Below are positions 5,261-28,800 of a stretch of 42,170 nt of DNA, piece by piece (positions within the stretch are counted from its first letter, which is position 1; every line of letters starts with the position of its first letter). The notes under the pieces are model-generated. The model had not been told where the DNA came from. It saw only the letters and a program-made list of their open reading frames with translations, and did no database searches. Made by a program: the position numbers and the translations under genes. Source of the DNA: a bacterium (GTDB taxonomy: Bacteria; JAHJDO01); NCBI GenBank assembly GCA_030611945.1, contig JAUWOV010000004.1, forward strand, positions 1-42,170, given 5' to 3'.

Positions 5261-6394
5261 ATGATAGGAATAGATAAGCTGGATGGAAAAATTAGTTTTC
5301 ATGAACGCAGAAGATATTCTCGTTTGCCAATTGAAATAAGTGTATTAATAAGCGCTGACCTTCCTGAACACACAGCCTTTTCACAGCAGGAAGAAAAAAA
5401 ATCAAAAGATATAAGCGGAGGAGGCATCTGTTTTAAGATGCAAAAACAGATAAAAACAGGTTCTCTAGTATACTTAAAATTACAACTTCCTGATGGTAAT
5501 AAAGAAGAAATATCTGCAAGCAGTATTATGAAATGGCAGAGAACAATAGTAACTTCAAATGGAGAAAAACATTATGAAACTGGTCTGGAATTTGCGCAAA
5601 TAGAGAAAAACGCAAGGCAAAGAATCATTGAATTTGTAAAAGTCAAAGAAATAATAATTAATATTGTTGACCTGCACAAAAGTTTTGGAGATGAAAAGAT
5701 ACTACAAGGCGTCAATCTTAAAATCAGACGCGGAGAGACCATTGTTGTTATTGGATGCAGCGGATGCGGCAAGACCGTACTCTTAAGACATATAATTGGA
5801 CTTATAAAACCGGATTCAGGTATACTGGAAATTGACGGAGTTGACATTGCGAGAATTTCAGACAATGAGCTTGATAAAATTAGAAGAAAATTCGGCATGC
5901 TTTTTCAGTCTGCTGCATTGCTTAATTCTCTTACTGTTGAGGAAAACATAAAATTGAGCTTACAAGAGCACACAAATCTGAGCGAAGAAGATATGAATAA
6001 AATAGTCAAAAATAAGCTTGGCATAGTTGGATTAGACGGTACTCAAAATTTAAAACCCGCTGATCTAAGCGGAGGTATGAAAAAACGGGTTGGGCTTGCA
6101 AGAGCAGTTAGCATGGACCCTGAAATTATGCTTTATGACGAACCAACAACCGGACTTGATCCGGTTAGAGCAGATTCCATTAATAAACTTATTTTAGAGT
6201 TTGAGAACACACTGAATACGACATCAATAGTAATAACTCATGATATGGTAAGCGCATATCAGATTGCAGATCGTATAGCAATGTTATATAATGGTAAGAT
6301 TATTCAGGCGGGAACTGTTCAGGAAATCAAGAATACAGACAGTCCCGTTGTCAAACAATTTATTACAGGAAGTAATGTGGGACCTATAACTTAA
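5261..6394 (+). CDS. PilZ domain fused to MlaF-type ABC ATPase
   Basis: N-terminal PilZ signature RRYSR ... DISGGG. C-terminal ABC ATPase: Walker A GCSGCGKT, Q-loop LFQSAALL, signature LSGGMKKRVGLARAV, Walker B IMLYDEPTTGLDP, H-loop VITHDM. Located between mlaE and mlaD. Confidence 0.9.
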   Translation: MIGIDKLDGKISFHERRRYSRLPIEISVLISADLPEHTAFSQQEEKKSKDISGGGICFKMQKQIKTGSLVYLKLQLPDGNKEEISASSIMKWQRTIVTSNGEKHYETGLEFAQIEKNARQRIIEFVKVKEIIINIVDLHKSFGDEKILQGVNLKIRRGETIVVIGCSGCGKTVLLRHIIGLIKPDSGILEIDGVDIARISDNELDKIRRKFGMLFQSAALLNSLTVEENIKLSLQEHTNLSEEDMNKIVKNKLGIVGLDGTQNLKPADLSGGMKKRVGLARAVSMDPEIMLYDEPTTGLDPVRADSINKLILEFENTLNTTSIVITHDMVSAYQIADRIAMLYNGKIIQAGTVQEIKNTDSPVVKQFITGSNVGPIT

Positions 6395-7680: not shown

Positions 7681-8772
7681 ATGCGAATATTAACCCGCTA
7701 TATTCTAAGAGAATTTATAGACCCTTTCTTCTCAAGCCTGTGCGTCTTTACATTTATTCTATTTCTGGGAAACATGTTTAGACTGGCAAATATGCTGGTA
7801 AAAGAGCGAATTAGCGTGCTTAGCATATTGAAACTAGTTGTATGTCTTCTCCCCTTTATCCTGACCTACACCTTACCAATGGCAATACTGGTGGCTACTC
7901 TTACCTCTATTGGCAGACTCTCTTCCGACAACGAAATAATTGCTATGAAAGCAACCGGGATAAATCCTTATAGAATAATCATGCCGCCGATTCTTGCTGT
8001 TGGTGTAATATTGTGCCTGGTATCTTTGCCGTTAAATAATACAATTGCTCCTAATGCAAACTTTTCTTCAAAAAAATTATTCAAAGAAATTGGTATTTTG
8101 AATCCCTCAGCTCTTCTGGAAGAAAAAAAGCCGATGAAGCTATTCAAAGGATATACTTTTTATATAGACAAAATTAGAAATAATATTCTATACAATGTGA
8201 TAATTTATCAGTTAAAACCTGACTCTTCTGTAAGAACAATAACCGCAAAACAAGGACGTTTTATATCTAAGCCAAAGATTAAGAGTCTGGTGCTCAAATT
8301 AAAGAATGGATCTATTGAGGAGTTAAACTCCAAAAATTCTAACGAATATTTTAAATGCTCTTTTAGGATTTACCCTGTAGATTTTGGTTCTATTGCTTAT
8401 GATATGATCAAATTAAAAAAGAGCGCTATTGAAATGACTTCTAATGACTTGAAAAACAAAATTATAAATAAAAAGACTAATATAAATAAATTATACGTGG
8501 AATTATACAGAAAAGCTTCACTTTCCTTCACATTTATTCCATTTATCCTGATAGGCATCCCCTTGAGTATCAGATATCGCCGCAGTAGCAAATTTGCAGC
8601 TATGGGAATAGGTATGCCCGTTATTCTTATTCATTACTTATTAATGATATCAGGATCAATAATAGGCCAGAAAGGCTACATGCCACCTGCTGTGGCAATG
8701 TGGCTGCCAAATATCATAATTGGAACAACAGGTATATACTTAATTTATAAAACCAGTTATAGCCATAGATAG
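7681..8772 (+). CDS. lptF: LptF/LptG (YjgP/YjgQ) family LPS export permease, likely LptF
   Basis: MRILTRYILREFIDPF, PFILTYTLPMAILVATLTSIGRLSSDNEIIAMKATGINPYRI; C-terminal TM bundle. Confidence 0.87.
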   Translation: MRILTRYILREFIDPFFSSLCVFTFILFLGNMFRLANMLVKERISVLSILKLVVCLLPFILTYTLPMAILVATLTSIGRLSSDNEIIAMKATGINPYRIIMPPILAVGVILCLVSLPLNNTIAPNANFSSKKLFKEIGILNPSALLEEKKPMKLFKGYTFYIDKIRNNILYNVIIYQLKPDSSVRTITAKQGRFISKPKIKSLVLKLKNGSIEELNSKNSNEYFKCSFRIYPVDFGSIAYDMIKLKKSAIEMTSNDLKNKIINKKTNINKLYVELYRKASLSFTFIPFILIGIPLSIRYRRSSKFAAMGIGMPVILIHYLLMISGSIIGQKGYMPPAVAMWLPNIIIGTTGIYLIYKTSYSHR

Positions 8773-8881
8773 GAAAATAGAAAAATGATATTATATAGCA
8801 AGGTCAATCATGGCGAAAAAGCAGGTGAGAAGAACTTGAATTGCCAAGAGCTTTTTAGGAATAAAACAAAAATGCAAAAAA

Positions 8882-8908
8882 AGCTAAAAAAATTAACTTT
8901 TTTTTGCT
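8882..8908. promoter_or_regulatory. Near-perfect A/T-rich inverted repeat upstream of the carbohydrate operon
   Basis: agctaaaaaaa-ttaac-ttttttttgct: 11-nt arms with one mismatch, 40 bp before the first operon gene; operator or hairpin. Confidence 0.35.
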
Positions 8909-8946
8909 AAACTATAACCTGTTATTTACAGATAAGGAGTTTTGAA

Positions 8947-10920
8947 ATGGGGAAAAAGTTATTTGATCATTTTTGCCTTGGCGTAAATTACTGGCCGCGA
9001 CACAGGGGAATTAACGTGTGGAAAGACTGGCGGTCCGAAGAGATTGACCGGGAGTTCGGCGAGATGGAATCTATAGGCATCAATACTGTCAGGATGTTTC
9101 TTGTGTGGGATGATTTTCAGCCTGTCAAGGAATGGTATGGGGGGCATCGCAAAAGCAAAATCAGGGTATGTTTCAGGCATGACGAGAATGTTACGATAGA
9201 GAACAATCCCTCAATGATTGACCCTGTTATGATGGAGCGCTTTGAGCAGATGCTCGATATGGCGTTGAAGCACAATCTGAAGCTCATGCCTGCTTTTCTG
9301 ACTGGCTGGATGAGTGGAACGTTGATAGAGCCTTCGTTTCTGGACGGCCGCAATATGTTCACCGATCCGGGGATGTTAAGGTACCAGGCACTGTACGCCA
9401 AATTCCTGGCCGAACATTTCAGGGATCATCCGGCCATTATCTGCTGGGACCTGGGCAATGAGCAGAACTGTTTTCAGAAATGCCCCTCAATGGATGCGGC
9501 CTGGGTCTGGACGAATTATCTTGTGACCACGCTGAAACGTTATGACCCCGGTACTCCCGTGACATCGGGCATGCACGGCCTGGGAATGAGCCGTTACAAT
9601 GACGGCGATAAACTCTGGCAGATTCAGGACGTGGCCGAAAGCTGCGATTTCACCACCCCGCATCCCTACCCCGGTTTTTATCAGGACTGCGTGGATGATA
9701 TATGCTCCATAAGGCCCACGCTCCTGGCGACTTTTCTCTCTAAATTGTATTCGGGAATAAGCGGAAAACCCGCAATGTGCCAGGAATATAACAGTCTCGG
9801 AGATTCTTTTGTTTCCGAGGAAGTCGCTGCGCGTTTTACCAGGGTGAACATGCACAGCCTCCTTGCCAATGGAGACCTTGGCGCGTTATGGTGGTCTCTC
9901 TCTGATTTCACCTGCCTGGATAGGCTGCCTTACAGTAATGTCCAGATGGAAGGCGACAAGCTTGGGCTTTTTGACGGCAGCGGCAATCCCAAGCCGGCGG
10001 CGCTGGAATGCAAAAAATTCTCCAAACTGCTCAGGAAAATTGATTACGAGAAGTTCGCGCCAGAAAAACCGAAAGCTGCCATCATCGTTCCTTTCCATGA
10101 AACGCTGGACGATCAGTCAAAGATATTCATGGCGTTCATTCTGTGCAAGCAGGTAGGTATAGAGGTCAATATAATACGGCCAGAATCTGATTTTACCCAA
10201 TATGAGCTGCTGATAATCCCGTCCCTCGCCGGGTTTGGGGGCTTCCGCACCGAAGACTGGAAAAGAATCCGCGCCAGAGCGCGTGAGGACGCCGCATTAT
10301 ACCTGTCTTATGATGGCTGCGCTTTGCGGGGAATGGGCAAAACCTTCGGCTTTGAGCCGCTCCAGAGGACCAAACCTTTCGAGAATGAGCGAGCACTTGT
10401 TTTCAACAAGAACTTTTCCTCTTTTAAAAAGGATGAAATTCTTGCCTTTTCCGAAACAGCGGACTGGACACTTGATATCAAAGCGGGCGAAGGCGAGGTA
10501 ATCGCAAGAAACTCCGAAGGCCGGCCGGGATTGATCGTCAACAATTACGGCAAAGGCAAAACGGTATTCTGCGTTGAGCCGATTGAAAAGTTTTTAATAA
10601 AAAAAGCTCACATATTCGAAAAGGATATTTCTTATAAAATATATTCGGCGTTGAAGGACATTGCCTGCATTAAAAGTGGAATCGAAATAGAGCATCCCCA
10701 TATTCAGCGAATGCTCGGCACTATGGGTAAGGCAAAAATTCTGACTGTGATAAACCATTCCCCCTCTGAGGTCAAAACGGAAGCGAAACTGGAATTTCCT
10801 GCGAAGAAAATAATGGAACTTTACAGCAATAAGGAAATCGCGTTTAAAAAGATTGAAACGCAAAGCAAGTTTGACATAAAACTCGAACCCAATGAAGTTA
10901 ACGTTTATAACATCGAATAA
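8947..10920 (+). CDS. Clan GH-A glycoside hydrolase (GH5/GH42/GH164-like) with C-terminal GATase-like and beta domains
   Basis: TIM-barrel-like N-terminus (GVNYWPRH...EMESIGINTVRMFLVWDDFQP), acid/base candidate CWDLGNEQN, nucleophile candidate MCQEYNSLGD, then a GH42-type Rossmann-like region (KAAIIVPFHETLDD...YELLIIPSLAGF). Confidence 0.75.
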   Translation: MGKKLFDHFCLGVNYWPRHRGINVWKDWRSEEIDREFGEMESIGINTVRMFLVWDDFQPVKEWYGGHRKSKIRVCFRHDENVTIENNPSMIDPVMMERFEQMLDMALKHNLKLMPAFLTGWMSGTLIEPSFLDGRNMFTDPGMLRYQALYAKFLAEHFRDHPAIICWDLGNEQNCFQKCPSMDAAWVWTNYLVTTLKRYDPGTPVTSGMHGLGMSRYNDGDKLWQIQDVAESCDFTTPHPYPGFYQDCVDDICSIRPTLLATFLSKLYSGISGKPAMCQEYNSLGDSFVSEEVAARFTRVNMHSLLANGDLGALWWSLSDFTCLDRLPYSNVQMEGDKLGLFDGSGNPKPAALECKKFSKLLRKIDYEKFAPEKPKAAIIVPFHETLDDQSKIFMAFILCKQVGIEVNIIRPESDFTQYELLIIPSLAGFGGFRTEDWKRIRARAREDAALYLSYDGCALRGMGKTFGFEPLQRTKPFENERALVFNKNFSSFKKDEILAFSETADWTLDIKAGEGEVIARNSEGRPGLIVNNYGKGKTVFCVEPIEKFLIKKAHIFEKDISYKIYSALKDIACIKSGIEIEHPHIQRMLGTMGKAKILTVINHSPSEVKTEAKLEFPAKKIMELYSNKEIAFKKIETQSKFDIKLEPNEVNVYNIE

Positions 10921-10961
10921 CATGGAAACTTGTCAAAAATAACCATGAGGAATATTGAAAA

Positions 10962-11612
10962 ATGAAGATATTTTTAGATACAGCGAATATTGAAGAGATA
11001 AGGAATGGAGTGGCTACGGGCACAGTAAGCGGTGTTACTACCAACCCTAGTATTATTTCAAAAGAAAACAAAACTTTTCGCAAGTGCATAGATGATATTA
11101 TGGCTGTGGATACCGAACTGACAGTGTTGGCAGAGGTGATCGCGGAGGATAAGGATGGAATGATTGAAGAGGCGCTGAATCTTTCCAGAATATCAGATAA
11201 CATAGTTGTGAAAATTCCAATAACGGTTGAGGGACTGGCTGCGATCAAAGTGCTTTCGCGGAAAAGAATTCAAACAACAGCAACTCTTATATTCAGCTTG
11301 AATCAGGCAATTGCGGCAAGTTGCGCCGGTGCGGATTATGTGGCCCCTTTTGTGGGACGGCTGGATGACATTAATGCCGATGGATTGGGGTTGATAAAGC
11401 TGATCAAAAAAACGTTCGCCATTCAGAATATGAAAACAAGGATAATTGCTGCGTCGTTGCGCAGCCCGCAGGCAGTAGCCGAGCTTTTTTCAGAAGGCTG
11501 CGACATTGTGACAATGCCGGGTAAAATTTTATACGCTATGCTCAAGCATCCATTAACCAATGCAGGCTTGAAGAAGTTTAATGAAGACTGGCAAAAGGTG
11601 CCGAATGAATAA
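10962..11612 (+). CDS. Transaldolase / fructose-6-phosphate aldolase-like (TalC/FSA type)
   Basis: MKIFLDTANIEEIRNGVATGTVSGVTTNPSII, VVKIPITVEGLAAIKVLS, TATLIFSLNQAIAASCAGADYVAPFVGRLDD. Confidence 0.92.
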   Translation: MKIFLDTANIEEIRNGVATGTVSGVTTNPSIISKENKTFRKCIDDIMAVDTELTVLAEVIAEDKDGMIEEALNLSRISDNIVVKIPITVEGLAAIKVLSRKRIQTTATLIFSLNQAIAASCAGADYVAPFVGRLDDINADGLGLIKLIKKTFAIQNMKTRIIAASLRSPQAVAELFSEGCDIVTMPGKILYAMLKHPLTNAGLKKFNEDWQKVPNE

Positions 11613-11626
11613 AAGCGGGAAGAGAA

Positions 11627-12817
11627 ATGGCTAGTTATCAATCAAAGTGTTTTATGTATTATGGTCCAGGTGAAATCAAGACAGAGACCATGGAAATTAT
11701 TTGCGGGCCGACGGATATCATTCTTCAAATTGATGTTTGTGGCCGCTGCGGAACGGACAAACGTCTGTTTGATATGGCTCATCCGAACGTGAAAACACCA
11801 ACAGTGCTTGGACACGAACTTGTTGGACGCGTCGTAGAAGCGGGGAGCGATGTTTATAGGATTACAAAGGGCATTGGCTACAAAGACGGCAAAAACTTGA
11901 CTTGCGAACAGCTTTGCCCGTCCATTGGACAACGTGTAACTGCGCAGTCACGGATCGCCAGGCACAGCCATGGTCTTATGTTGATCAGGAATCCTATACA
12001 GAATCTTTCGTTTCAAATTCCAGGAGCTTATGCCCAATACATGAAGGTTTCGGTGGAGATGATTCAATCAGGTTCGATTTTACCGGTACCGGATAATGTG
12101 ACGGATGAAGAAGCTGCTCTGGTGGAGCCGACCGCCTGTGCTTTGGAAAGCATTTTTGCCACTCCCCATGCGGTTGGCGTGGACAGCGAAGGACGGCATA
12201 TAGTCCGCAGCGGCATCAAGCGGAAAGGACGAACACTGATTATCGGTTCCGGCACGCTGGCCTTGATCTACGGGCAATTGGCGAAAATAGAGGGAGCAAA
12301 AGATATCTGGTTTATTGTGCGCTCGCAATCCAAAGTGGAGCTGGCCAGCGAAATCCTTGGTGATTGGGCTAAGTTCAAAATTGTACCGGATTATTCGACT
12401 TGCCCGCTTTCCAAAAAAATAGAGATGGAAACGGAGTTGGTGAAGGAGTTTACCGACCTTAGCGATGGAAACTTGTTTGATGACATTATTTTGGCAGCGC
12501 CATCGAAAGACGCCCAAAGACTAATGTTTCAATTGCTTAATCCCGATGGGTACGGTGTTGTGGTCTGTTTTGCTGGTTTGCATGAAGCCAGCGACCATGC
12601 ACAGGTAGATAATCTACATTATCGCATGGCTAAGGCAATCGGTACCAGCGGCTGTTCTACGCGGACTATGGAAACCGTGCTTAACTGGCTTTCCTCAGGC
12701 AAGCTGTCGCTTAATGGTTATACATGCCCGCATCATTATACTTTAAACGATAATCCGGCTGATTTTTTTCAAACAAAAGCAGATGGACGTAAACCCATGC
12801 TATATCCATGGGAGTAG
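11627..12817 (+). CDS. Zinc-type MDR alcohol/polyol dehydrogenase-like protein, atypical (structural-zinc lobe not recognisable)
   Basis: CGRCGTDKRLF ... LGHELVGRVVEAG catalytic-site region, nucleotide-binding IGSGTLALIYGQLAK; lacks the usual CGxCxxCxxGxxxxC lobe. Confidence 0.75.
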   Translation: MASYQSKCFMYYGPGEIKTETMEIICGPTDIILQIDVCGRCGTDKRLFDMAHPNVKTPTVLGHELVGRVVEAGSDVYRITKGIGYKDGKNLTCEQLCPSIGQRVTAQSRIARHSHGLMLIRNPIQNLSFQIPGAYAQYMKVSVEMIQSGSILPVPDNVTDEEAALVEPTACALESIFATPHAVGVDSEGRHIVRSGIKRKGRTLIIGSGTLALIYGQLAKIEGAKDIWFIVRSQSKVELASEILGDWAKFKIVPDYSTCPLSKKIEMETELVKEFTDLSDGNLFDDIILAAPSKDAQRLMFQLLNPDGYGVVVCFAGLHEASDHAQVDNLHYRMAKAIGTSGCSTRTMETVLNWLSSGKLSLNGYTCPHHYTLNDNPADFFQTKADGRKPMLYPWE

Positions 12818-12823
12818 AGGAAA

Positions 12824-13837
12824 ATGGAAAAAACAATGCGGCTTGCAGTTTGTGACAGACCCGGCCATATCAAGATTAAAATAGTTCCGATACCGCGGGT
12901 TGATGGTGATATGATTCTTGTTAAGGTGAGCATCTGTGGAATATGCAACTCGGATATAGTGGCCTGGCGTAATAAAGGATACAAGACCTACCCATATTCT
13001 CCTGGACATGAGTTTTGCGGTGTAATTCAGGAGCTTGGGCCGGAAACAAGAGGTTTGCGTTTGGGGCAGCGGGTGGTTGTCAATCCGAATTTCGGATGCG
13101 GAGAATGTCGCTATTGTAAGGTCGGCAAGCCGAATCTGTGCGACTCCCTTAAAACCCGGCGCACTAAGAGCAATGGCGGATTCAGCGAATATGTGGCGCT
13201 TGACTACCGGATGGCTTACCCTCTGCCTGAATTATTCCCGGACGAATTCGCACCATTCATAGAGCCCTTATCCTGTGCGGTGCATGCCGCCCGAAGGATA
13301 AATGCTATGCCTGATGAACTGATTGGTGTTTTCGGCGCGGGCATTATGGGGCTTTTGACGGGCCTCGTCTTAAAATCTTCAGAATATGAAACGATTTTTA
13401 TTGAGCCTTCGGATATTCGCCGTCAAAAGCTTGTCGAGCTTCTCAATGCCACCTGTCTTACCCCGAGTGAATTGGAAGACTCTGAATTTTTCGGCAAAAT
13501 GGACGCAGCTGTTGATTGTAGCGGAGCCGCAATAGCCGTATCTCAAGCTGTCAGAACATTGCGTAAAGCCGGACGGCTTGTTCTGGCTGGACTAGTGACG
13601 AGCACCAAAGGAGTAGATATATCGTTAATGGATGTGACGATGAAGGAATTGGATATCAGAGGCGCTTGGCTGAATCCTAATTCCTTTGATGAGGCAATAA
13701 ATCTAGCTGTTAAGTATGAAAACATCCTGCGGCAGCTTAAAACAAGAACGTTAGTTATTGATGATATCGCCGTTGCCTTTGAACAGGCCGCACGGCAGGA
13801 ATTTGACAAAATATTTATTAAAATTAAAAATGGATGA
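12824..13837 (+). CDS. Zinc-dependent MDR alcohol/polyol dehydrogenase
   Basis: CGICNSDI, GHEFCGVI, structural zinc CGECRYCKVGKPNLC, Rossmann GVFGAGIMGLLTG. Confidence 0.88.
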   Translation: MEKTMRLAVCDRPGHIKIKIVPIPRVDGDMILVKVSICGICNSDIVAWRNKGYKTYPYSPGHEFCGVIQELGPETRGLRLGQRVVVNPNFGCGECRYCKVGKPNLCDSLKTRRTKSNGGFSEYVALDYRMAYPLPELFPDEFAPFIEPLSCAVHAARRINAMPDELIGVFGAGIMGLLTGLVLKSSEYETIFIEPSDIRRQKLVELLNATCLTPSELEDSEFFGKMDAAVDCSGAAIAVSQAVRTLRKAGRLVLAGLVTSTKGVDISLMDVTMKELDIRGAWLNPNSFDEAINLAVKYENILRQLKTRTLVIDDIAVAFEQAARQEFDKIFIKIKNG

Positions 13838-14789
13838 AAGAAAATTTGATTTGACCTGTCTGGGAAATCTGGTGTTGGATTTGTTTGCAAAGCCAATCGA
13901 TCATTTTCCGGAAAAAGGGTGTGCCGGATATTTTGACACACTTGAAATGCATCCAGGTGGATGTGCTTATAATACAGGCGTTGACGCTGCGCGTCTTGGT
14001 TTGCGGGTTGCTGTTCAGGGTATTGTTGGGATGGATCAGTTTGGCGATGTGATGATTAATTCCATGAAAAAGGAGAGCGTAGATATTTCTGGGGTATGCC
14101 GCACGGCGGAGGCAAACACTGGATTTTCATTTGTCATGGTTCCTGAGGATGGGCAGCGCCGTTATTACCACACCATAGGAGCGAATGCGGCTTTCAATAT
14201 GTCTAACGTGTCCAAAGAGCAGATCATACAGTCAAGAGCTTTTCATGTTGCAGGAGCTTCATTACTGCCTGCACTTGACGGCACGCCGACAGTAGAATTG
14301 TTGCGGTTCGCTCGAGAACATGAGGTTCTGACGTGTCTTGATCCTGTCGTTAGAGAAGACAGCGCAAATTTGATTTTAGCATGTATCCCATACCTTGACC
14401 TGTTCTTGCCAAACAACGATGAGTCGTCGCTCATCACAGGACTCAGCGATCCCGAGGATCAGCTCAAATTCTATTTGGACAAAGGCGCGGGAATCGTGGG
14501 CATTAAGATGGGTGAAAAAGGCGTTCTAATTAGCGACGGGAAAAAATATTTTAAGTTAGGAATCTATCGTGTTCCTGTAGTCGACACCTGTGGCGCCGGC
14601 GATGCTTTTGTGGCTGGATTTATTTATGGCTTTCTTGCAAAGTGGGACTTAATGAAGACGGCCATGTTTGCTACTGCTACAGCCGCTTTTTGCGTCCAGT
14701 CGATTGGAACGACGAACGCAATGCCAAAAGCAGAAAATGTCCTGGGCTTTATGGAGAAAAGAAAGACACCACTAATAATTCAAACATAA
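13830..14789 (+). CDS. PfkB-family carbohydrate kinase
   Basis: Start at ATG 13830, overlapping the preceding stop. LTCLGNLVLDLFAKP, GGCAYNTGVDAARLGLRVAVQGIVGMDQFG, VDTCGAGDAFVAGFIYGF (PfkB signature 2). Confidence 0.9.
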   Translation: MDERKFDLTCLGNLVLDLFAKPIDHFPEKGCAGYFDTLEMHPGGCAYNTGVDAARLGLRVAVQGIVGMDQFGDVMINSMKKESVDISGVCRTAEANTGFSFVMVPEDGQRRYYHTIGANAAFNMSNVSKEQIIQSRAFHVAGASLLPALDGTPTVELLRFAREHEVLTCLDPVVREDSANLILACIPYLDLFLPNNDESSLITGLSDPEDQLKFYLDKGAGIVGIKMGEKGVLISDGKKYFKLGIYRVPVVDTCGAGDAFVAGFIYGFLAKWDLMKTAMFATATAAFCVQSIGTTNAMPKAENVLGFMEKRKTPLIIQT

Positions 14790-14812
14790 ACAGTGAACCA
14801 GAGGAGTACACA

Positions 14813-15772
14813 ATGCCATTAGTAACAGAATACAATGCAGTAAAGGATATCTATCAGGAAGCGGCTGAGCTTGGGGTGGGATTGCCTGTTTTCTGCGCTG
14901 AGGACAGGGAAACACTTGAGGCGATTCTCGCCTCTGCCCTGGAAATGGGCAAAGATATTGGAGTTGAGAATTTGCCTATAATTCCGGCCTGGACGTCGCG
15001 CTATCCGCCACGCAGTCAAATGAAGCTTCTAACCGCTTGTGGGGATCCTATTCTCGGGATCAATCTTATGTTTTCAGATCTCAAAGCGTTTATGGGGGCA
15101 ACCAGCCCATATCGCAAATTACGGGTTATGCCACACCTTGACCATGCCTTTCCATGGCTTGACGGAGATATTATGGAAAGCTTTGCCGATTCCTTCGCCT
15201 CGGTCATGTGCGACGCCAGTGAGAAGCCTTTTCAGAAAAATATCGAGATTACTGCTGGGTACGTGGAAAAGATAAAAGGCAAAGTCGTGGTCGAGGGGTC
15301 CGTTGATGAGATTTATGAATCAGGCAGCAAAGGTGAGAAAAATGAGCCCACAAGTGTGGTTCATGCAAAAGAATTCATAGCCAGAACAGGTGTGGATATT
15401 ATCGTCCCGAATGTTGGCACAGAACATCGCGCCACGACTGGTCAGGTGAAATATCTATCTGATCAGGCAAAAAAAATCAGCAAGGAGGTAGGCAGGATTC
15501 TTTGCATTCATGGAACATCTTCGGTTAAGCCGGAAGATTTACCGAAGCTTCCGGCAGATGGTTTTGTTAAGATCAATATTTATACCACCCTGGCGGTAAA
15601 TGGCGGGCAAGCCGTTGCGCGAGAGGTTATGGACAATCTTGAGAATATTTTTGACAATCCTAAATTGGCAATCGTTGCTAACCCTCCGCGCCGGGATGCG
15701 TGGTTTTTCGCCGTGCGAGATCGTTGCCGCCAATTTCTGGAAGCTTTTAATTATAAATTATATTCAAAATAA
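14813..15772 (+). CDS. Class II fructose/tagatose-bisphosphate aldolase family protein
   Basis: Start chosen at ATG 14813 after GAGGAG. MPHLDHAFPW zinc motif, GVDIIVPNVGTEHRA, ILCIHGTSSV, FVKINIYTTLA. Confidence 0.8.
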   Translation: MPLVTEYNAVKDIYQEAAELGVGLPVFCAEDRETLEAILASALEMGKDIGVENLPIIPAWTSRYPPRSQMKLLTACGDPILGINLMFSDLKAFMGATSPYRKLRVMPHLDHAFPWLDGDIMESFADSFASVMCDASEKPFQKNIEITAGYVEKIKGKVVVEGSVDEIYESGSKGEKNEPTSVVHAKEFIARTGVDIIVPNVGTEHRATTGQVKYLSDQAKKISKEVGRILCIHGTSSVKPEDLPKLPADGFVKINIYTTLAVNGGQAVAREVMDNLENIFDNPKLAIVANPPRRDAWFFAVRDRCRQFLEAFNYKLYSK

Positions 15773-15785
15773 AGCGAGAGAAAAA

Positions 15786-16364
15786 ATGATTGCTAGAAAA
15801 CAATTTGAAAACGCCAAAAAACAGACGATGGAATATCTTGAAAAAGCGGGGATCGCGATAACCGGCGAGGAAAAGGCAAAAATTGAAGTCGTTGACTTTT
15901 GTCTTGGTGATCTTAAACACATGGGAGTTGAGATATTAACATACGTAAATACGGCAAAAGTTTGCGCCAAAGAGTTGGTGCTTTTTCCATGCCAGACATG
16001 CGCTGAACACATTCATCCAACAATTAACGACGTCCCGGGCAAGGAGGAAACTTTCCGATGCAGATGGGGAAAGGTCTATCTCTATGTGGACGGATCGGCT
16101 ACGGCGAATGTAAAAGCAAAAATGCATAAAAACTTAAAAGGACATGTAACCGTGTTTCATGAGATAAAGCTTAATCCGGGTGATCAGCACACATTATATC
16201 CCGATACACTCCACTGGTTCCAGGCTGGACCCGAGGGAGCCGTGATATCTGAGTTTTCCACCACGAGTACTGATGAACTTGATAGATTCACTGACCCGCG
16301 AATCGGCAGGTTTACTAAAGTTAACGATGACGAAGAAGACATGTCAGAAAAGAGAGATTTATAG
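15786..16364 (+). CDS. D-lyxose ketol-isomerase family cupin sugar isomerase
   Basis: AEHIHPTINDVPGKEETFRCRWGKVYLYVDG, LNPGDQHTLYPDTLHWFQAGPEGAVISEFSTTSTDELDRFTDPRI. Start set at ATG 15786; the longer ORF overlaps the aldolase. Confidence 0.85.
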   Translation: MIARKQFENAKKQTMEYLEKAGIAITGEEKAKIEVVDFCLGDLKHMGVEILTYVNTAKVCAKELVLFPCQTCAEHIHPTINDVPGKEETFRCRWGKVYLYVDGSATANVKAKMHKNLKGHVTVFHEIKLNPGDQHTLYPDTLHWFQAGPEGAVISEFSTTSTDELDRFTDPRIGRFTKVNDDEEDMSEKRDL

Positions 16365-16414
16365 ATGAGTATGATAAAATATATTGTTTTTGATTTGGGA
16401 GGAGAGAAGAACTT

Positions 16415-17617
16415 ATGACTTCGAAAGAAAGGATGCTTATAGCCATGAAGAATGGGAAGCCTGATATGGTACCGGTTAGCCCCGACATATCTAATATGAT
16501 TCCTTGTAGACTTACTGGTAAACCCTTCTGGGATATCTATCTTTACCAAGATCCTCCCTTATGGAAGGCTTATATTGATGCTGTGAAATATTTTGGCTTT
16601 GATGGATGGCTATCTGATGACAGAGGTGTTAATTCGATATTTGTTGAAAATGAGCAGCCTGTTTCCGAATGCAAAAGAGAAACAGTGATTATTCTAAAAT
16701 CTTCTGAAAGAATTATAACCAGAGAATATACAGAGAAGGAGAAAGGCAAAAAAGAATGGTCAGATTTTATTACTGTATATTTTGTAGCTGATCCTCCTAC
16801 ATCTTTGAAAGCCTCAAAAATAGGAATGGAATTTCCTCCTGCTAAGTTTTGGCCAATTGAAGGAGTAAAACCTCAGAAAAAAGATTTAGAGCTTTTAAAG
16901 GAAGTTAAGGAATATATGGGCGAAGATGGAGTAGTAGGCATATCCGTCGGCATCCCCTTTTTATCTCAGCCAGGCCAGCAACGAGGCTACTCGGTCTATG
17001 ACTACTATGACAAATACGACGAAGTTAAAGAGTGGAGTTTTAAAGTAGAAAAGAGGCAGCTAAATAGATTAGAGAGAATTCTTTCGTTTCCTATAAAGCC
17101 CGATTATATTCTCACTGGCGGTTCAGGTTGCTTAATTAGTCATACTCCTGCTATTCTCAAGGATATCGCTCTCACATGTTTACAGAAAATTACTAAAATG
17201 TGCAAGGATGCAGGAATCCCTTCGCAGGTACACTGTTGCGGGCCAGAGAAAGAAATGGTAAAAATGTGCGCGGAGGAAACAGATTTAGACAATATTAATC
17301 CTTTGGAAATTCCACCAATGGGAGATTGTAACTTGAAAGAGATTAAAAAAAAGTTTGGCAGGAAGATTTCCTTAATGGGGAATTTGCATACTACAGAAGT
17401 TATGCTGAGAGGTTCGGCAAAGGACGTTGAAAGGGAAAGTCTCAAAGCGATACTGGACGCGGGAGTTGGTGGTGGCTTCATCCTTTCCACTGGAGACCAG
17501 TGCGGCAGGGATACCCCCAATGAAAACATATTCGCGATGAAGGAAATGGCTGAAAAATTTGGACAATACCCTTTGGATATTGGTAAAATAAAAGAGGAAA
17601 TTCAGAAAAGAAAATAG
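16415..17617 (+). CDS. Uroporphyrinogen-decarboxylase-family protein, MtaA/CmuA-like rather than HemE
   Basis: MTSKERMLIAMKNGKPDMVPV N-terminus; HCCG and STGDQCGRDTPNENI give an HxC...C zinc-site pattern; no HemE RQAGRYLPEY motif. Confidence 0.78.
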   Translation: MTSKERMLIAMKNGKPDMVPVSPDISNMIPCRLTGKPFWDIYLYQDPPLWKAYIDAVKYFGFDGWLSDDRGVNSIFVENEQPVSECKRETVIILKSSERIITREYTEKEKGKKEWSDFITVYFVADPPTSLKASKIGMEFPPAKFWPIEGVKPQKKDLELLKEVKEYMGEDGVVGISVGIPFLSQPGQQRGYSVYDYYDKYDEVKEWSFKVEKRQLNRLERILSFPIKPDYILTGGSGCLISHTPAILKDIALTCLQKITKMCKDAGIPSQVHCCGPEKEMVKMCAEETDLDNINPLEIPPMGDCNLKEIKKKFGRKISLMGNLHTTEVMLRGSAKDVERESLKAILDAGVGGGFILSTGDQCGRDTPNENIFAMKEMAEKFGQYPLDIGKIKEEIQKRK

Positions 17618-17642
17618 GTTATTTCAAATGGAGGCATAAGGA

Positions 17643-20141
17643 GTGAAAATGTCAAAAATAAAGATACCCTTAAACGGAAATTGGAAACTGTGGTATTACA
17701 ATGAGGGAGAAGGAGAATGCAAGTCCGTAGAGAAGCCAGGATTTTATGACGAAGACTGGATAAAAGCGAAAGTGCCTGGCGATATCCATCTTGCTCTCCT
17801 TGACGCAGGAAAGATACCTGATCCTTACTATGGAATGAATTTCCGGGAATGCTATTGGGCGGAGAATGTGGATTGGTGGTATCGGCGAGAGATTGAGGTA
17901 AGCGATAATCTGAAAGGCATAAAAAACATACTGGTTTTTTATGGGCTTGATACCTTTGCCACAATCTATCTGAACGGCAGAGAAATTGGAAAAACCAACA
18001 ATATGTTTATCAAACATTCCTTTGACGTTACACAGAAACTTAATTACGGCGGTTCCAACCTGATCGTGGTTAAGTTGTCTTCCCCAATCAAAGCAGTAGA
18101 GGGACGTAATCTGGATGGGCTCAAAGGCGCCTATCACACCCCTGAAAAGCTCTATGCCCGCAAGATGCAGATGAGTTATGGATGGGACAATGTCCCGCGG
18201 CTATTGACTTGCGGGATATGGAAAGACGTGGAACTCCTCTCCTATGACCGTCTTTCCATAGAAAATGTTCACATAGTAACGAAACTGGGAAATGGAGAAG
18301 CAGCCACAGTGAACCTTAAAGTAGAAATAAACAATTATACTGACTTCTCTCTACCGGCAGACATTAGCATTAACGGGGAATGTGAAGAGAACAGATTTTC
18401 TAAGAATCTGACGGTGGAAATAAAACCAGGGGGATCGGTAGTTGAGACTGCTATTGAAGTGCAAAAAGCAAAAAAGTGGTGGCCTTGGACTATGGGAGAA
18501 TCGAACCTGTATGCCATGAAAATAAAGGTCGAAACAGTTGGCGAACTGCTGGACGGATATGAAACAAGATTTGGAATAAGAGAGATAAAGGTTCAGGAAG
18601 AACCACAGGGAGATGATACGACCTCGTTCATCTTTAGCGTTAATGGAAAGAAGCTGTTTATAAATGGAACCAACTGGCAGCCACCCGATGCTATCCCTGC
18701 TCTGACAACCGATTGTAAATATCGCGAACTGATAAAGATGGTCAAAGAAGCCAACCTGAATATGATCCGCATTTGGGGCGGAGGAATGATTGAGCCGGAT
18801 ATATTTTACGATCTCTGTGATGAGATGGGCATCCTCGTGTGGCAGGATTTCCTGTTTGCCTGCGCTCTTTATCCCCAGACAGAAGACTTTTTGAATGAGG
18901 TTGAGATAGAGGCAAGAGGGATAGTAAGAGAACTTCGGAACCATCCCTGCCTTGCCATCTGGTCAGGGGACAATGAAATTGATTATTGTTACCACTGGGA
19001 AAAATCTCTGGAGGAAAGACAGGAATTAAATAAGATAAGCCATCAGCTTCTGGCAAAGGTAGCTAAGGAAAAGGACGAAACCCGCTATTACCTTCCAACC
19101 AGTCCACACGGCAAGGATTCGCCGCGATCACACAAGGACGGAGATTCTCATAATTGGGCAATGTGGCACTCGGGAACCTCTTATAAGGTGATGGCGGAAG
19201 ATAACTGTCGTTTCATCAGCGAATTCGGCCGGCAGGGTGTGCCCTGTCTTGACACCCTGAAGCGTTTTATTCCGGAAGATAAACTCTGGCCGCCTGACAA
19301 TGAAGTATGGGCATATCATTCAGGGAGTCTGGATGGATTTGATAATAAGGCTAAAGAGAAATTAGCTTCCTGTATCATGGAATTTGGAGAACCTCATAAC
19401 CTGGAGGAATATATTTCCCTCACTCAATTAGCCCAGGCCGAATCCTTCAAATTTGCAATAGAGCATTTCCGCAGAAGAAAATATGATTGCGGCGGTTGTA
19501 TCTCCTGGAAATTTGTTGATACCTGGCCAAGTATCTGCTGCAGCCTTGTTGACTATTATCTAAACCCCAAGATGGTTTACTATTATGTAAAAAAAGCCTC
19601 CAGTCCAATTTTGATTTCTTTCAAAGAGGAAAAGGATGGTGTATCTCTCTGGCTTATCAACGATACCTATGAGTCGGTCAAAGGAAATCTCCTGTTTGCA
19701 CACCGTCGTTTTGACGGAGAAATACTAGTCACGCAGGAGGAAGAGATTGAAGTCCATGCGGATGCAAGCGTCATGATTAAGGACATTCCTTACAGTTCCC
19801 TTGTTATCCAGAATAAGCGAAGCGAGTATCTTGAAGCCCGGCTGGAGATAGAAGATAAGGAGGTTTCTCAAAGCAGGATTTTCTTTGTTGATCACAAAGA
19901 TTTAGACATTCCAGAAACCGAGCTTGATGTAAAGATCGTATGGAATAAAAACAAGCGTAAAACTGTGAGGATAAGAACTGCGAACTACGCCAGAATAGTC
20001 GAGATAAAAAGTATGAGCAAAAATGCTCGTTTCGAGGACAACTATTTCGATCTCTCTTCAAATGAAGTGAAGGAAATTAAAATAACAGATGAAAGCGGAT
20101 TGATAATAAAGGCTAGGAATTCTCCTGTGACCCCTTTGTGA
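17643..20141 (+). CDS. GH2-family glycoside hydrolase, beta-mannosidase-like
   Basis: IPLNGNWKLWYYNEGEG, VPGDIHLALLDAGKIPDPYYGMNFRECYWAENVDWWYRREIEV, NMIRIWGGGMIEPDIFYDLCDEMGILVWQDF, acid/base IWSGDNEID, nucleophile FISEFGRQGVP. ATG at 17649 is an alternative start. Confidence 0.92.
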   Translation: MKMSKIKIPLNGNWKLWYYNEGEGECKSVEKPGFYDEDWIKAKVPGDIHLALLDAGKIPDPYYGMNFRECYWAENVDWWYRREIEVSDNLKGIKNILVFYGLDTFATIYLNGREIGKTNNMFIKHSFDVTQKLNYGGSNLIVVKLSSPIKAVEGRNLDGLKGAYHTPEKLYARKMQMSYGWDNVPRLLTCGIWKDVELLSYDRLSIENVHIVTKLGNGEAATVNLKVEINNYTDFSLPADISINGECEENRFSKNLTVEIKPGGSVVETAIEVQKAKKWWPWTMGESNLYAMKIKVETVGELLDGYETRFGIREIKVQEEPQGDDTTSFIFSVNGKKLFINGTNWQPPDAIPALTTDCKYRELIKMVKEANLNMIRIWGGGMIEPDIFYDLCDEMGILVWQDFLFACALYPQTEDFLNEVEIEARGIVRELRNHPCLAIWSGDNEIDYCYHWEKSLEERQELNKISHQLLAKVAKEKDETRYYLPTSPHGKDSPRSHKDGDSHNWAMWHSGTSYKVMAEDNCRFISEFGRQGVPCLDTLKRFIPEDKLWPPDNEVWAYHSGSLDGFDNKAKEKLASCIMEFGEPHNLEEYISLTQLAQAESFKFAIEHFRRRKYDCGGCISWKFVDTWPSICCSLVDYYLNPKMVYYYVKKASSPILISFKEEKDGVSLWLINDTYESVKGNLLFAHRRFDGEILVTQEEEIEVHADASVMIKDIPYSSLVIQNKRSEYLEARLEIEDKEVSQSRIFFVDHKDLDIPETELDVKIVWNKNKRKTVRIRTANYARIVEIKSMSKNARFEDNYFDLSSNEVKEIKITDESGLIIKARNSPVTPL

Positions 20142-20171
20142 AAAATGGAAAGATTTGTATGATAGATTATA

Positions 20172-20210
20172 AGATTGCTTCACTTCGTTTGCAATGACTG
20201 ATAGCGAAGT
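20172..20210. repeat. Hairpin-forming repeat-like element of the SVIANEVKQS type
   Basis: Minus-strand read tcagtcattgcaaacgaagtgaagcaatct translates to SVIANEVKQS. Internal inverted repeats ATTGC..GCAAT and CTTCG..CGAAG. Confidence 0.6.
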
Positions 20211-20286
20211 TTGTTCACAAATGAGAAAATTATAAATAAAGAACAATGTTTAGAGTTTTAGAAATTAGGATTTAGGATTTTATAAA

Positions 20287-21372
20287 ATGAAAGTTATAGA
20301 TCGCTATCTTATAAAAAGTTTTTTGTGTTCGTTATTCTACTGCCTGACAGCATTTATATGTCTCTATCTGATAATAGATCTGATAAGCAATACAGACGAA
20401 TTTGTATCAGAGGGCGCAAAATTCATTGACATTGTAAACTATTACAGAAACCTGCTGCCGAATATATATATAAAAATCATGCCCATCTCAACTCTTATAG
20501 GCATAATAATAACCTTGAACTATCTTAATAAACATAATGAGCTAATGACATTGTGGGCTAGCGGCGTAAGCTCTATGAAAATTTTAATGCCGTTTTTACT
20601 GGTTTCTGCAATTATAAGTTTAGCGTCTATACCTGTAAGTATGAATATCGCTCCTAAATCAATGTCAAAAGCGCGCTATATATGGAAAGTCAATATTGGT
20701 AAACAATACCAGCTTAAAAAGAAAGTATGGACTGATTTCGCATTTTTAGACGTAAAAAACAGAATCGTTCATGTAGCCCTTTTTAATGCTAAAGATAAAT
20801 ATATGCATAATATTAAAATAACTCAGTATGATAAAAATTATAATATCAAAAACACAATTAATGCTAAAGAGGCAAAATGGATAGATAAGAAATGGATGCT
20901 TTTTAATGGGCTAATCCGTGTACTTAATACAGAAGGTTCTATTATTAAAACCGAAAACTTTAAACAATTAGTATCTGACATCACAGAAACGCCTCGCGAT
21001 CTTCTGATCAAACAAGCTGAATTACCGCATCTGGACGCAAAGCTTCTAAAACGCCGCATTAAAAGTCTAATAAAAATCAAATGCTACCCATATAGGGAAT
21101 TGACAGAGTTGCATTCAAGAATGTCGCTTCCGTTCTCAAATCTTGTAATGATAATTATTGCTTTTTCTATAATGCTGGTTGCTGGCAAAAATGAGAAAAA
21201 GGAAAGCATTGGAATTGCTCTGAGTATTGGATTTATCTATTATGGGATAGCGATTCCTATTATATTAGCGATTGGAAGAGACGGAGATATTAATCCATGG
21301 CTTGCTGCATGGCTGGCTAATATCATTTTTGCGATTCTTCATCTCGGAATACTAATCAAGGCAAGAAAATAA
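20287..21372 (+). CDS. lptG: LptF/LptG (YjgP/YjgQ) family LPS export permease, likely LptG
   Basis: MKVIDRYLIKSFLCSLFYCLTAFICLYLIIDLI, PISTLIGIIITLNYLNKHNELMTLWASGVSSMKI; same length and topology as the first Lpt permease. Confidence 0.87.
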   Translation: MKVIDRYLIKSFLCSLFYCLTAFICLYLIIDLISNTDEFVSEGAKFIDIVNYYRNLLPNIYIKIMPISTLIGIIITLNYLNKHNELMTLWASGVSSMKILMPFLLVSAIISLASIPVSMNIAPKSMSKARYIWKVNIGKQYQLKKKVWTDFAFLDVKNRIVHVALFNAKDKYMHNIKITQYDKNYNIKNTINAKEAKWIDKKWMLFNGLIRVLNTEGSIIKTENFKQLVSDITETPRDLLIKQAELPHLDAKLLKRRIKSLIKIKCYPYRELTELHSRMSLPFSNLVMIIIAFSIMLVAGKNEKKESIGIALSIGFIYYGIAIPIILAIGRDGDINPWLAAWLANIIFAILHLGILIKARK

Positions 21373-21375
21373 GTT

Positions 21376-22479
21376 TTATGCAGTGAAAACCTGATTTTTA
21401 CCGGATTCTTTGCCTTTGTATAGAGCATCATCCGCTTTTTTCATAAGCTCTGTTGCTGAATCTGCAGTCTCAGGATAATCTGCAAGTCCAAAAGTTATTG
21501 TAACTTTACCGCCTGGCTGACTTTCTTCATTAACAAATTTATATTCCTCAACGGTTTTTCTCAACTTTTCCGCTACGATTTTGGCGCCCTCTTTTAATGT
21601 ATTCGGAAGGATTATAACAAACTCTTCTCCGCCATAACGAGCAACGATGTCTTTTCCCTTAGTATTGTTTTTTAATATTTGTCCAATTTGTCGCAGAACT
21701 TCATCGCCGGCAGGATGACCATTAGTATCATTATAATGCTTAAAATTATCTACATCTCCCATTATAAGCGAAAGAGGCTTCTTGCCCTCTTTTGCCCTCT
21801 TTACTTCAACCATTAATTTTTCCTGAAAATGACGATGATTATATAAATTGGTTAATCCATCTGTAATTGAAAGCAACTTTGTTTTTTCTAATAGCTGAGC
21901 ATTTTCTGCCAACAACCCTGCCTGAGTTGCAACAGTTGTCAGAAGATCCAGCTCTTCTCCAGTAAAATCACGCGGCTTATCTGCTAATCCTCCTATTAAT
22001 CCTATAACCTTTTTTCTCCTTCGCAAAGGCGCAACAATCAAAGACGTTATACCCTGATCACTTAAAAACTTATATTTAGGAAAAGATGATAAATCATTTA
22101 TCAGATGTGACTGCCCTTTATTTATTACATCTTCTTTTATCTGCTCTCCAAGAGTCAATTCCTCTCTTCCTTTTATAACCCGCATAAAGAAATCCTGCTG
22201 CTCATCACTATACAGTTGTAAAATAATTACATCTACCTGTAATATCTTAGCTACAGCATCTACTATTCTTCTTAATACTTGTTCTAAATCTTGCTCCTCT
22301 CCAAATACATCTATAGCTTGCTTTATAACATTCAAGATGTATGACTGCCTACGGGTATCCATTAAAAGCAGTTCCAATTTTTCATGCTCACGACGCAATT
22401 TTGCCAGCCTCTTGTGCAAATTCGCATAAGAAACATGCCATATAAGAACAACGAATAACAATATAATCCCGAATATCAC
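21376..22479 (-). CDS. GAF-GGDEF diguanylate cyclase, single N-terminal TM
   Basis: N-terminal TM, GAF-like region (ILNVIKQAIDVFGEEQDLEQVLRRIVDAVAKILQVD), LSITDGLTNLYNHRHFQEKL, ARYGGEEFVIILPN (intact GGEEF); upstream KGKD replaces the RxxD I-site. Confidence 0.9.
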   Translation of the reverse strand: MIFGIILLFVVLIWHVSYANLHKRLAKLRREHEKLELLLMDTRRQSYILNVIKQAIDVFGEEQDLEQVLRRIVDAVAKILQVDVIILQLYSDEQQDFFMRVIKGREELTLGEQIKEDVINKGQSHLINDLSSFPKYKFLSDQGITSLIVAPLRRRKKVIGLIGGLADKPRDFTGEELDLLTTVATQAGLLAENAQLLEKTKLLSITDGLTNLYNHRHFQEKLMVEVKRAKEGKKPLSLIMGDVDNFKHYNDTNGHPAGDEVLRQIGQILKNNTKGKDIVARYGGEEFVIILPNTLKEGAKIVAEKLRKTVEEYKFVNEESQPGGKVTITFGLADYPETADSATELMKKADDALYKGKESGKNQVFTA

Positions 22480-25897: not shown

Positions 25898-28800
25898 CTA
25901 TGCCTTTCCTAGTTCCAGCTTCTCTCCTTCTTCTTTGTATTCATTCTTTATCTCCGGACTAATTGTTCTCCACACAAGAAACTGTTTTCTCAACGTGTCA
26001 AGAAAATGCCTGTTCAGTCTCTTCCACGCGCCCGTTTCTCCGCTTAGTCTCACAATTAATAATTTTATATTATACACATTGTATTCTCCTGCAGGAATTG
26101 CTTTTAACTGAAAATCCTGACTTATTCCCAGATCAAATGGAGCTAACCATGCTCTTGTCTTCAATACATACCCCGTTTCTTCTTTCTCTTTAAAGGCAGA
26201 CAGATTTGCTCCGTCTGTATAGAAATCTCCTACAGACTCCTCTTCGTAGGACGCAAAGTAATCCTTTAAGAATACAGTTAACCCAAGAACTTCTGCGCCG
26301 CTTACTGTAAATGGAAAATCAAATTCCCAATTATCTCCTGTTGGCTCGGGGAGTTCCCATTTTCTGGTTACGTCAGGAACAGCAAGCTCTGCTGCCTTTC
26401 TGGCAGGATACATAGTAGATAAAATCACTGTTGCCATTACAATTAATGTGGAAGCTACTGCTGAGGTAGAGGAATAATTCAGAGTTAATCCACCCAATAA
26501 GTCAAAAACAGTTAAAACCTTTGCTACCACCTGTCCAAGCAAATAACCTGCTACAGCTCCCAAAACTGCGTATACGCATGATTCTGCTATAAATAAGGCT
26601 GAAATATGAATAGGAGCCAGCCCAACTGAGGAATAAATCCCGATCTCTTTAAACCTCTCATATACAGATCCCATCATAGTGTTAAGAACTATCAGAGAAG
26701 CAATAAGAATCGGTATAAATAAATTCCCCATACCTGACAATGAGCTAAGCCCTAATGAACTATATATTGTAACCTTTCCGTCAATCCCAGCAAAAAGAGT
26801 GACTGCCAATCTGGATATAAAATTCTCTATGCCTTTTCTTACATCTACACCTTCATTAAACTTAATCGCGACTGACTGTATGGTGCCTCCCAGCTCTTGC
26901 ACTAATTTGTACGGAACCATAACAACATTCTCATATTCCAAATGATTAAATGACTCCAACCTGCCGCCGCCGCCAATACTCATCCTTTCAGCTTTTGGCT
27001 GTTTAAACTTTTTTATTGACTCAGGGTCAGTAATCATAAAATCAACAGGAGCCAGGTTCTCATCGTCAAGATCCTTGAGATCAACTATACTTGACGCATT
27101 AAATATTCCCTTAACTAATAGTTTATTCCCAAACATCTGGATATAACTTTCCCCTATATCCTTTGAAGATATTGATATTAACTCTGCCAACTTATCCGAA
27201 ATAATACATACATTCTTATCTCTATCATTGAACCAGTCCCCATACTTAATATACTTACTAATACCTGTGATCCTTTCCTCTTGAGGAGTTAGTCCAATTA
27301 ACCCAAGCGCATAAGCATATCTATCTCCATTCTTCACCTTAATGTAGCTCTTACCTGTAGTAAAATCCTTATTAGGAATATACCATGCCCTTGGAGATAC
27401 ATCAGCTATATCCTTGAATTCAGCCTTTATATATTCATAAGCAGGCTCTTCTATCGGATTCCACGTTCGATCTCTTATCATGGCTCCTTCGTAAAGAGGC
27501 GTATTATCTCTGGGAACTTGATTAAACTTCATAAATGACTTTACTGACGTAAATGAAAGCACTGTAAATGTGAGAAGAATGAGTGTTGCAGAGGTTAAAA
27601 AAGTTCTGATCTTGCGCTTTTTCATATTAGAAATACCCAAAGAGAATGCAGCAGCTGATGCGCTTGCTCTGCTAACATCGCTTTCATAAGACCTTGTCAT
27701 TTTCCGCTTTAAGTTCTGCATTCGCTCTTCAAATTTAGAGCTTATTATCAATAACACAATTACAGAAAGCATCATTATAATGAATGCAAGAAGAATTATT
27801 TCCGGAGCGTTTGTCAATTTGAACGCAGGATGAACAAAACGCATTACCATATATATCGCTATAAATATGCCTGCTATCCCGCCAATCTGTTTTTTGATAT
27901 CTACAAATCCAAATAGCAAGCGCTCCATAAAATAAGCAAACGGGATAAGAAGCGCAAGATAGAAGATAATGCCTTTTATCACATCATTCGCCGTAGCCTT
28001 TACATCAGGATACGCTCTGGATTCTATTCCAACCGCTCTTCTTGAATACTTTATAAATTCATCCCATTTTTTATTCTCTTTAGCCTGACAAGCTTTTTGC
28101 AGAGCTTGTTCAGCTTTTTTATGTAAATGCCAAAGCCTGTCATTGGATATTCCATATTTCTCCAGATTCTCCATTCTAAACTGGTTTAAAAATAGCATAT
28201 CATTTGCTGCCTGGAATGATGTATTTACAATTGTTCCATCCTTAGATATCAAAAACCCATCGCCTTCAGAGTGAATTTTGCTTTTTGCGTCTTTTGAATT
28301 CAGCAACAGCAGTCGCATTCCAAGAGGCCCTGCTCCAAAAGCAAGCTTTATACGTGTATTTGGAGAGGAATAAATTACCCCGTATGTTTCTATGGAAGAC
28401 GTCCAATCCCAGGGTTTGATCTTTATAAATGAATATCCATACGAAGACGGAATACTGTTCCCTTCATTAAATATATCAATATTGTCAAGCTGCGCCAAAT
28501 ATCTTGGATCTAATAACTCATAAACGTTGGTAGCTACGCATGGAAACAGAACAATAGTATGTTCAACAAATCTCCAATCCATTTTAAATTCTATTGGATA
28601 CATCTCATCTCCGTAAACACCCATATCCGGAGCATAAACTATATCCCCTGATTCAGAGTCCAAAGAGTATGCTTCTAACCGGGATTTACCCAGGGCTGGT
28701 ATTATTCTGGATATTTCAAACGACCCATCCTTATCTGTGAGTTCTATCAAATCTGGTCTTACGCCCTTAATTACCTCTGTAGTTTTACCAAGCACTTTCA

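Follow-up and report, generated by a model that had tools for sequence, protein, structure and literature searches.

A PilZ domain fused to an MlaF-type ATPase in the lipid-transport operon of an uncultured bacterial genus

A PilZ domain and an ATPase of the Mla/MCE lipid-transport group are encoded as a single polypeptide within a 42,170-nucleotide stretch of bacterial DNA (the whole of which we call the window), and this PilZ–MlaF fusion is genuine and conserved. It is known from one genus of uncultured, deep-branching bacteria, where it occupies the ATPase position of a minimal MlaEFD transporter. We consider it probable that the PilZ domain acts in cis as a c-di-GMP-responsive allosteric regulator of the transporter; we infer binding, effect, and direction of effect from sequence.

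Results

A single reading frame with two domains

The original prediction described one uninterrupted reading frame between mlaE and mlaD, in which an N-terminal PilZ domain carrying both c-di-GMP motifs runs into a complete ABC ATPase with intact motifs. Each of these elements was recovered here (Table 1); the genus-wide conservation, the cyclase gene nearby and the lack of MlaB, described below, go beyond that prediction. The frame has an ATG start and no internal stop, and begins three bases past the mlaE stop codon. Domain searches placed significant PF07238 and ABC_tran matches in the same chain: PilZ scored 42.8 bits (E 7e-11) over a curated cut-off of 22.5, or 45.1 bits when the whole genome was searched, and ABC_tran scored 114.4 bits at residues 148–297. 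Besides the motifs in Table 1, the nucleotide-binding domain (NBD) has a Q-loop (Q216) and a D-loop (GLDP, 298).

Table 1 Coordinates of the fusion gene, its domains and motifs, and neighbouring genes in the window
Feature	Position	Strand	Evidence or remark
mlaE permease, 256 aa	4487..5257	+	Pfam MlaE 284 bits; TIGR00056 271.5 over cut-off 212.2
pilZ-mlaF fusion gene, 377 aa	5261..6394	+	Single ORF; Pfam PilZ + ABC_tran
PilZ domain, residues 15-126	5303..5638	+	Pfam PF07238
RxxxR motif R17-R21 (RRYSR)	5309..5323	+	Motif read; invariant in five genomes
DxSxxG motif D50-G55 (DISGGG)	5408..5425	+	Motif read; D50, S52, G55 invariant in five genomes
MlaF/MCE-type NBD, residues 130-377	5648..6391	+	Pfam/NCBIfam, AF2, PDB matches
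Walker A GCSGCGKT, residues 165-172	5753..5776	+	Motif read
ABC signature LSGGM, residues 269-273	6065..6079	+	Motif read
Walker B LYDEP, residues 291-295	6131..6145	+	Motif read
H-loop ITHD, H327	6233..6244	+	Motif read
mlaD, long MCE protein, 418 aa	6407..7663	+	TTG start after GGAGG; Pfam MlaD 63 bits
lptF, LPS-export permease	7681..8772	+	Next after mlaD in 5/5 genomes
lptG	20287..21372	+	Directly after lptF in three congeners; here about 11.5 kb insert between
GAF-GGDEF diguanylate cyclase gene	21376..22479	-	GGEEF intact; tail-to-tail with lptG in 5/5 genomes

The name MlaF, also part of the original prediction, holds for the Mla/MCE group of ATPases: the top NCBIfam model over residues 130–376 is MlaF PRK11831 (208 bits), the best PDB matches of the NBD are mycobacterial MceG and MlaF, and the LSGGM signature of the fusion contains the methionine typical of Mla-like NBDs (PMC7367683). 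It does not extend to the proteobacterial equivalog, whose NCBIfam cut-off (NF008809) is 441 bits and for which 208 bits falls short.

No linker separates PilZ from the NBD, and no in-frame ATG, GTG, or TTG was found at the junction (residues 115–140) of the window’s fusion ORF, in agreement with the earlier argument that these are not two genes. The in-frame starts nearest the junction are both ATGs, at codon 90 within PilZ and codon 213 within the NBD. The four other genomes have scattered GTGs only (119, 147, 173), none of them conserved at the junction. We discount an internal start at codon 90, where ATG or GTG is present in 5/5 genomes: translation would start midway through the PilZ barrel, the window shows no ribosome-binding site ahead of this codon, and V/M is an ordinary strand residue of PilZ at that position. 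That the fusion is an artefact, either two adjacent genes or an assembly or frameshift error, has a negligible probability. The junction lacks a start codon, and an assembly frameshift is ruled out by the presence of the same full-length ORF in five congeneric genomes that were assembled separately.

In the AF2 model of the fusion, pLDDT is about 80–94 across most of the NBD and about 25–68 over residues 1–128, the PilZ part, with only three PilZ sequences in the alignment. A helix at residues 116–130, of low confidence, is continuous with a strand at 131–142. Searching the PDB by phmmer with the PilZ part returned no significant match, and a 13-sequence PilZ profile gave weak matches to a type IV fimbriae assembly PilZ.

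Conservation, distribution, and origin

The window’s GTDB phylum is sampled by five genomes, all of one genus, and the full-length fusion is present in all five at 84–86% identity. Two of these are the cold-seep MAGs CSMAG_1431 and CSMAG_1337, whose prefix is that of a cold-seep catalogue (PMC10491686). Residues R17, R21, D50, S52, and G55 are invariant in the five-genome alignment; over half of the PilZ columns show no variation in this set, so the invariance of motif residues carries little weight. Nei–Gojobori dN/dS over ten pairs was 0.18–0.64 for the PilZ part and 0.07–0.20 for the ABC part. In the comparison with other PilZ domains of the genus, the fused PilZ gave 0.28–0.49 and the others mostly 0.11–0.30, with a single value of 0.61 that rests on a dS of 0.07. 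These ratios indicate that the fused PilZ is under purifying selection, though less strongly so than its paralogues.

When 385 genomes across the domain were searched with a profile built from the five fusions, 336 had an MlaF-like match. Among the best matches (about 150), only those of the five congeners started from residue 1; all others started from residue 108 or later. In 20 other genomes, the long open frames ahead of mlaF were considered as possible divergent fusions and rejected: none had a PilZ match, and they proved to be either short leaders or readings of the preceding gene in another frame. The closest MlaF proteins (55–63% identical) are stand-alone and encoded in the same order, mlaE–mlaF–mlaD, which is kept in most relatives. 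In the phylum with the closest MlaF (61–63% identity) the protein is stand-alone in 5/6 genomes, and a search of the relatives’ loci revealed no separate PilZ gene close to mlaF. A scan of 84,980 species, one genome each, detected the fusion only in CSMAG_1431 and CSMAG_1337 and stand-alone MlaF in Firestonebacteria and others; the scan uses exact peptide patterns that distant fusions would escape, so restriction to this genus refers to these samples. The five fusions form one clade in the tree (100/100), the nearest neighbour of which was not resolved. The simplest history is that PilZ was added ahead of a resident mlaF within an existing operon.

The transporter operon and its neighbours

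A single MlaE scores over the cut-off in every one of the five genomes, and the window locus holds its genome’s only mlaE. The fusion is the sole MlaF-type ATPase of that genome, the remaining ABC matches being 25–39% identical. No STAS_2 (MlaB) protein was matched in any of the five genomes, and the fusion terminates, with no C-terminal extension, at GPIT, which in the alignment corresponds to residue 252 of E. coli MlaF (269 residues). The transporter is of the minimal MlaEFD kind without MlaB.

Two described systems are close to this arrangement. MlaF of MlaFEDB (E. coli, P. aeruginosa, A. baumannii) shares the NBD fold, the motifs including LSGGM, and the partners mlaE and mlaD; the fusion differs in its added N-terminal PilZ, its score below the NCBIfam equivalog cut-off, and the lack of both MlaB and the C-terminal extension that E. 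coli-type MlaF uses for a handshake (PMC7367683). The minimal MlaEFD of Veillonella parvula (PMC10665443) is similar in gene order, in having no MlaB, and in MlaD length (419 aa versus 418 here), whereas the window’s ATPase bears PilZ. The V. parvula MlaD bears an outer-membrane beta-barrel (PMC10665443); for the window’s MlaD, AF2 predicted a helix-then-strand order at a model pLDDT of 35, which does not confirm a barrel.

The order in three genomes is mlaE, pilZ.mlaF, mlaD, lptF, lptG, and then the cyclase on the opposite strand. Over the few kilobases surrounding mlaF in the relatives’ loci, neither lptFG nor the cyclase was seen. Neighbours conserved within a single genus may simply reflect shared synteny. 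The insert that splits lptF from lptG in the window (8773–20286) consists of sugar-metabolism genes, with GH42-like, transaldolase-like, dehydrogenase, lyxose isomerase, and GH2 mannosidase-like content; another of the five genomes (G003) has an insert of a different length, about 4.1 kb, between the same two genes (L135 3868–8013).

c-di-GMP signaling in the same genome

Judging from its domain content, the window’s own genome encodes a c-di-GMP circuit. It has seven GGDEF matches, three with an intact GGDEF/GGEEF, two HD-GYP domains with HHExxxGxGYP, and 12 PilZ matches; no EAL domain was found in it. Further PilZ fusions involve Ser/Thr kinases, PTS EIIA, FHA, and flavodoxin, and on the evidence of these predicted architectures the lineage employs PilZ as a general plug-in sensor.

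Several of these genes are unusual in their own right. The Ser/Thr protein kinase–PilZ fusions are two paralogues with an uncommon domain pairing (L003 1492–2673, minus strand; L005 673–1848, plus strand), and the PTS EIIA–PilZ fusions (L001 and L002) are an equally unusual phosphotransferase pairing. FHA–PilZ (L010 769–1749, minus strand) and PilZ–flavodoxin (L011 1384–2337, plus strand) genes are found in the same genome. A PilZ remnant broken by a TAA (L012 1501–1707, minus strand), apparently a decayed copy, lies about 1.4 kb from a kinase–PilZ gene on the same contig (G000:C88). A tandem pair of GGDEF-family domains that lack the GGDEF motif (L016 and L017, G000:C115:15122–17169) probably represents degenerate paralogues.

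Discussion

The reading that we favour, an MlaEFD ATPase with PilZ in cis as a putative c-di-GMP-responsive allosteric regulator, draws on several lines of evidence and agrees with the original suggestion that c-di-GMP may gate lipid trafficking. The protein is one polypeptide with complete ATPase motifs and with canonical c-di-GMP-contact residues that are invariant in five species. The genome offers no second MlaE locus, no MlaB, and no alternative MlaF-type ATPase, it encodes GGDEF and HD-GYP enzymes with intact motifs, and a GAF-GGDEF gene adjoins the cluster in 5/5 genomes. Purifying selection on the PilZ part points in the same direction, as does the precedent of Alg44 and BcsA (PMC12564702). 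Residues R17, R21, D44, and S46 of Alg44 are required for c-di-GMP binding, and the cis-PilZ of BcsA activates the enzyme and relieves autoinhibition (PMC12564702). Alg44 and BcsA resemble the fusion in that an envelope synthesis or export machine contains, or is fused to, a canonical PilZ; theirs handles exopolysaccharide, whereas here PilZ is N-terminal on a lipid-transport ABC ATPase. Several points count against this explanation: the fused PilZ evolves faster than the genus’s other PilZ domains, the low AF2 confidence over PilZ means that its fold and placement are not confirmed by modelling, motif invariance carries little weight in so conserved a set, and the conserved gene neighbourhood may be shared synteny. 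Relatives that have neither PilZ nor MlaB also suggest a transporter able to function in the absence of a regulator of this kind.

We hypothesize that c-di-GMP, which most PilZ domains bind as a dimer (PMC7288161), would bind the RxxxR/DxSxxG site, with the short N-terminal arm folding onto the PilZ barrel. Ligand binding would shift the C-terminal helix of PilZ (about residues 116–130), which leads directly into strand 1 of the NBD, and this shift could change NBD closure and ATP hydrolysis and hence lipid flux between inner and outer membranes. Since MlaF functions as a dimer, two PilZ domains would be present on each transporter. By analogy, we lean weakly toward activation rather than inhibition as the effect of c-di-GMP because cis-PilZ domains on envelope machines (BcsA, Alg44) activate on binding.

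The main rival is that PilZ is an assembly or stability module independent of c-di-GMP, standing in the place of MlaB (STAS) and holding the NBD dimer together or onto MlaE. We regard this as unlikely, albeit deserving of attention. In E. coli, both MlaB and the C-terminal extension of MlaF are needed for assembly (PMC7367683); STAS_2/MlaB is absent in 5/5 genomes here and the fusion stops at GPIT, while some PilZ proteins are known to function without c-di-GMP (PMC11800159) and the faster evolution of the fused PilZ lends mild support. Against such a role, both c-di-GMP motifs are complete and invariant, and a non-binding P. aeruginosa PilZ protein is without such residues (PMC12564702). Relatives without PilZ likewise have no long extension and keep the same operon, so no substitute seems to be required.

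A c-di-GMP-dependent recruitment domain, which would localise the transporter or couple it to a partner and leave catalysis unchanged, appears less likely still. PilZ is a common module in this genus, being joined to kinases, PTS EIIA, FHA, and flavodoxin, and the conserved cyclase and lptFG genes next to the transporter would supply candidate partners (the neighbouring cyclase, a PilZ-kinase, or the LptFG machinery). However, no partner was identified, and a PilZ–NBD junction without a linker suits direct mechanical coupling better than tethering. It is more improbable again that the PilZ part is a neutral passenger of a chance fusion, slowly decaying: its dN/dS lies above that of the genus’s other PilZ domains, but is clearly below 1 in most pairs, and the frame has stayed open in five species with the motif residues invariant.

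Should cis-regulation by PilZ be correct, a broader and more tentative possibility is that c-di-GMP directly switches an inter-membrane lipid transporter with a cyclase encoded at the end of the same conserved cluster (mlaE-pilZ.mlaF-mlaD-lptF-lptG / GAF-GGDEF), by which the supply of phospholipid, and perhaps of LPS, to the outer membrane might be tied to lifestyle.

Both parts of the protein belong to known families. To our knowledge, their combination in a single chain is new, and it is retained throughout a phylum-level lineage. Within the library searched, queries for PilZ with MlaF, for c-di-GMP with MlaFEDB or an MCE transporter, and for PilZ with ABC NBDs found no description, and no c-di-GMP receptor on a lipid-transport ATPase was found reported. 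NBD-fused regulatory domains that answer a ligand or partner protein are present in MetNI, ModBC, and MalFGK (PMC7367683), where it sits at the C-terminus and detects a small molecule or regulatory protein; the domain of the fusion is N-terminal and presumably a second-messenger sensor.

c-di-GMP acts on polysaccharide synthesis, motility, pili, and transcription. If our reading is true, this lifestyle signal may also directly control membrane lipid traffic. The fusion bears on post-translational regulation of Mla-type lipid transporters, which is an open question; what controls MlaB activity was not settled by the structural study of E. coli MlaFB (PMC7367683). A natural single-chain PilZ–MlaF makes the question of regulation testable with one purified protein.

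Other genes in the window

Further along the window, a gene on the minus strand (25898–30406) encodes a protein of 1502 aa that has an FtsX-type permease domain and matches peptidase M28 weakly; this gene belongs to a same-strand run that also includes the GAF-GGDEF gene and an ABC ATPase/FtsX pair. An ORF6N-domain protein, of a kind common in phages, is encoded at 32782–33360 (minus strand) between an ETF-alpha gene and the rpsD/rpoA genes. At the contig edge, a 1202-aa RHS-repeat protein (38562–42170, minus strand) is adjoined by a gene for a CAAX-protease-like membrane protein.
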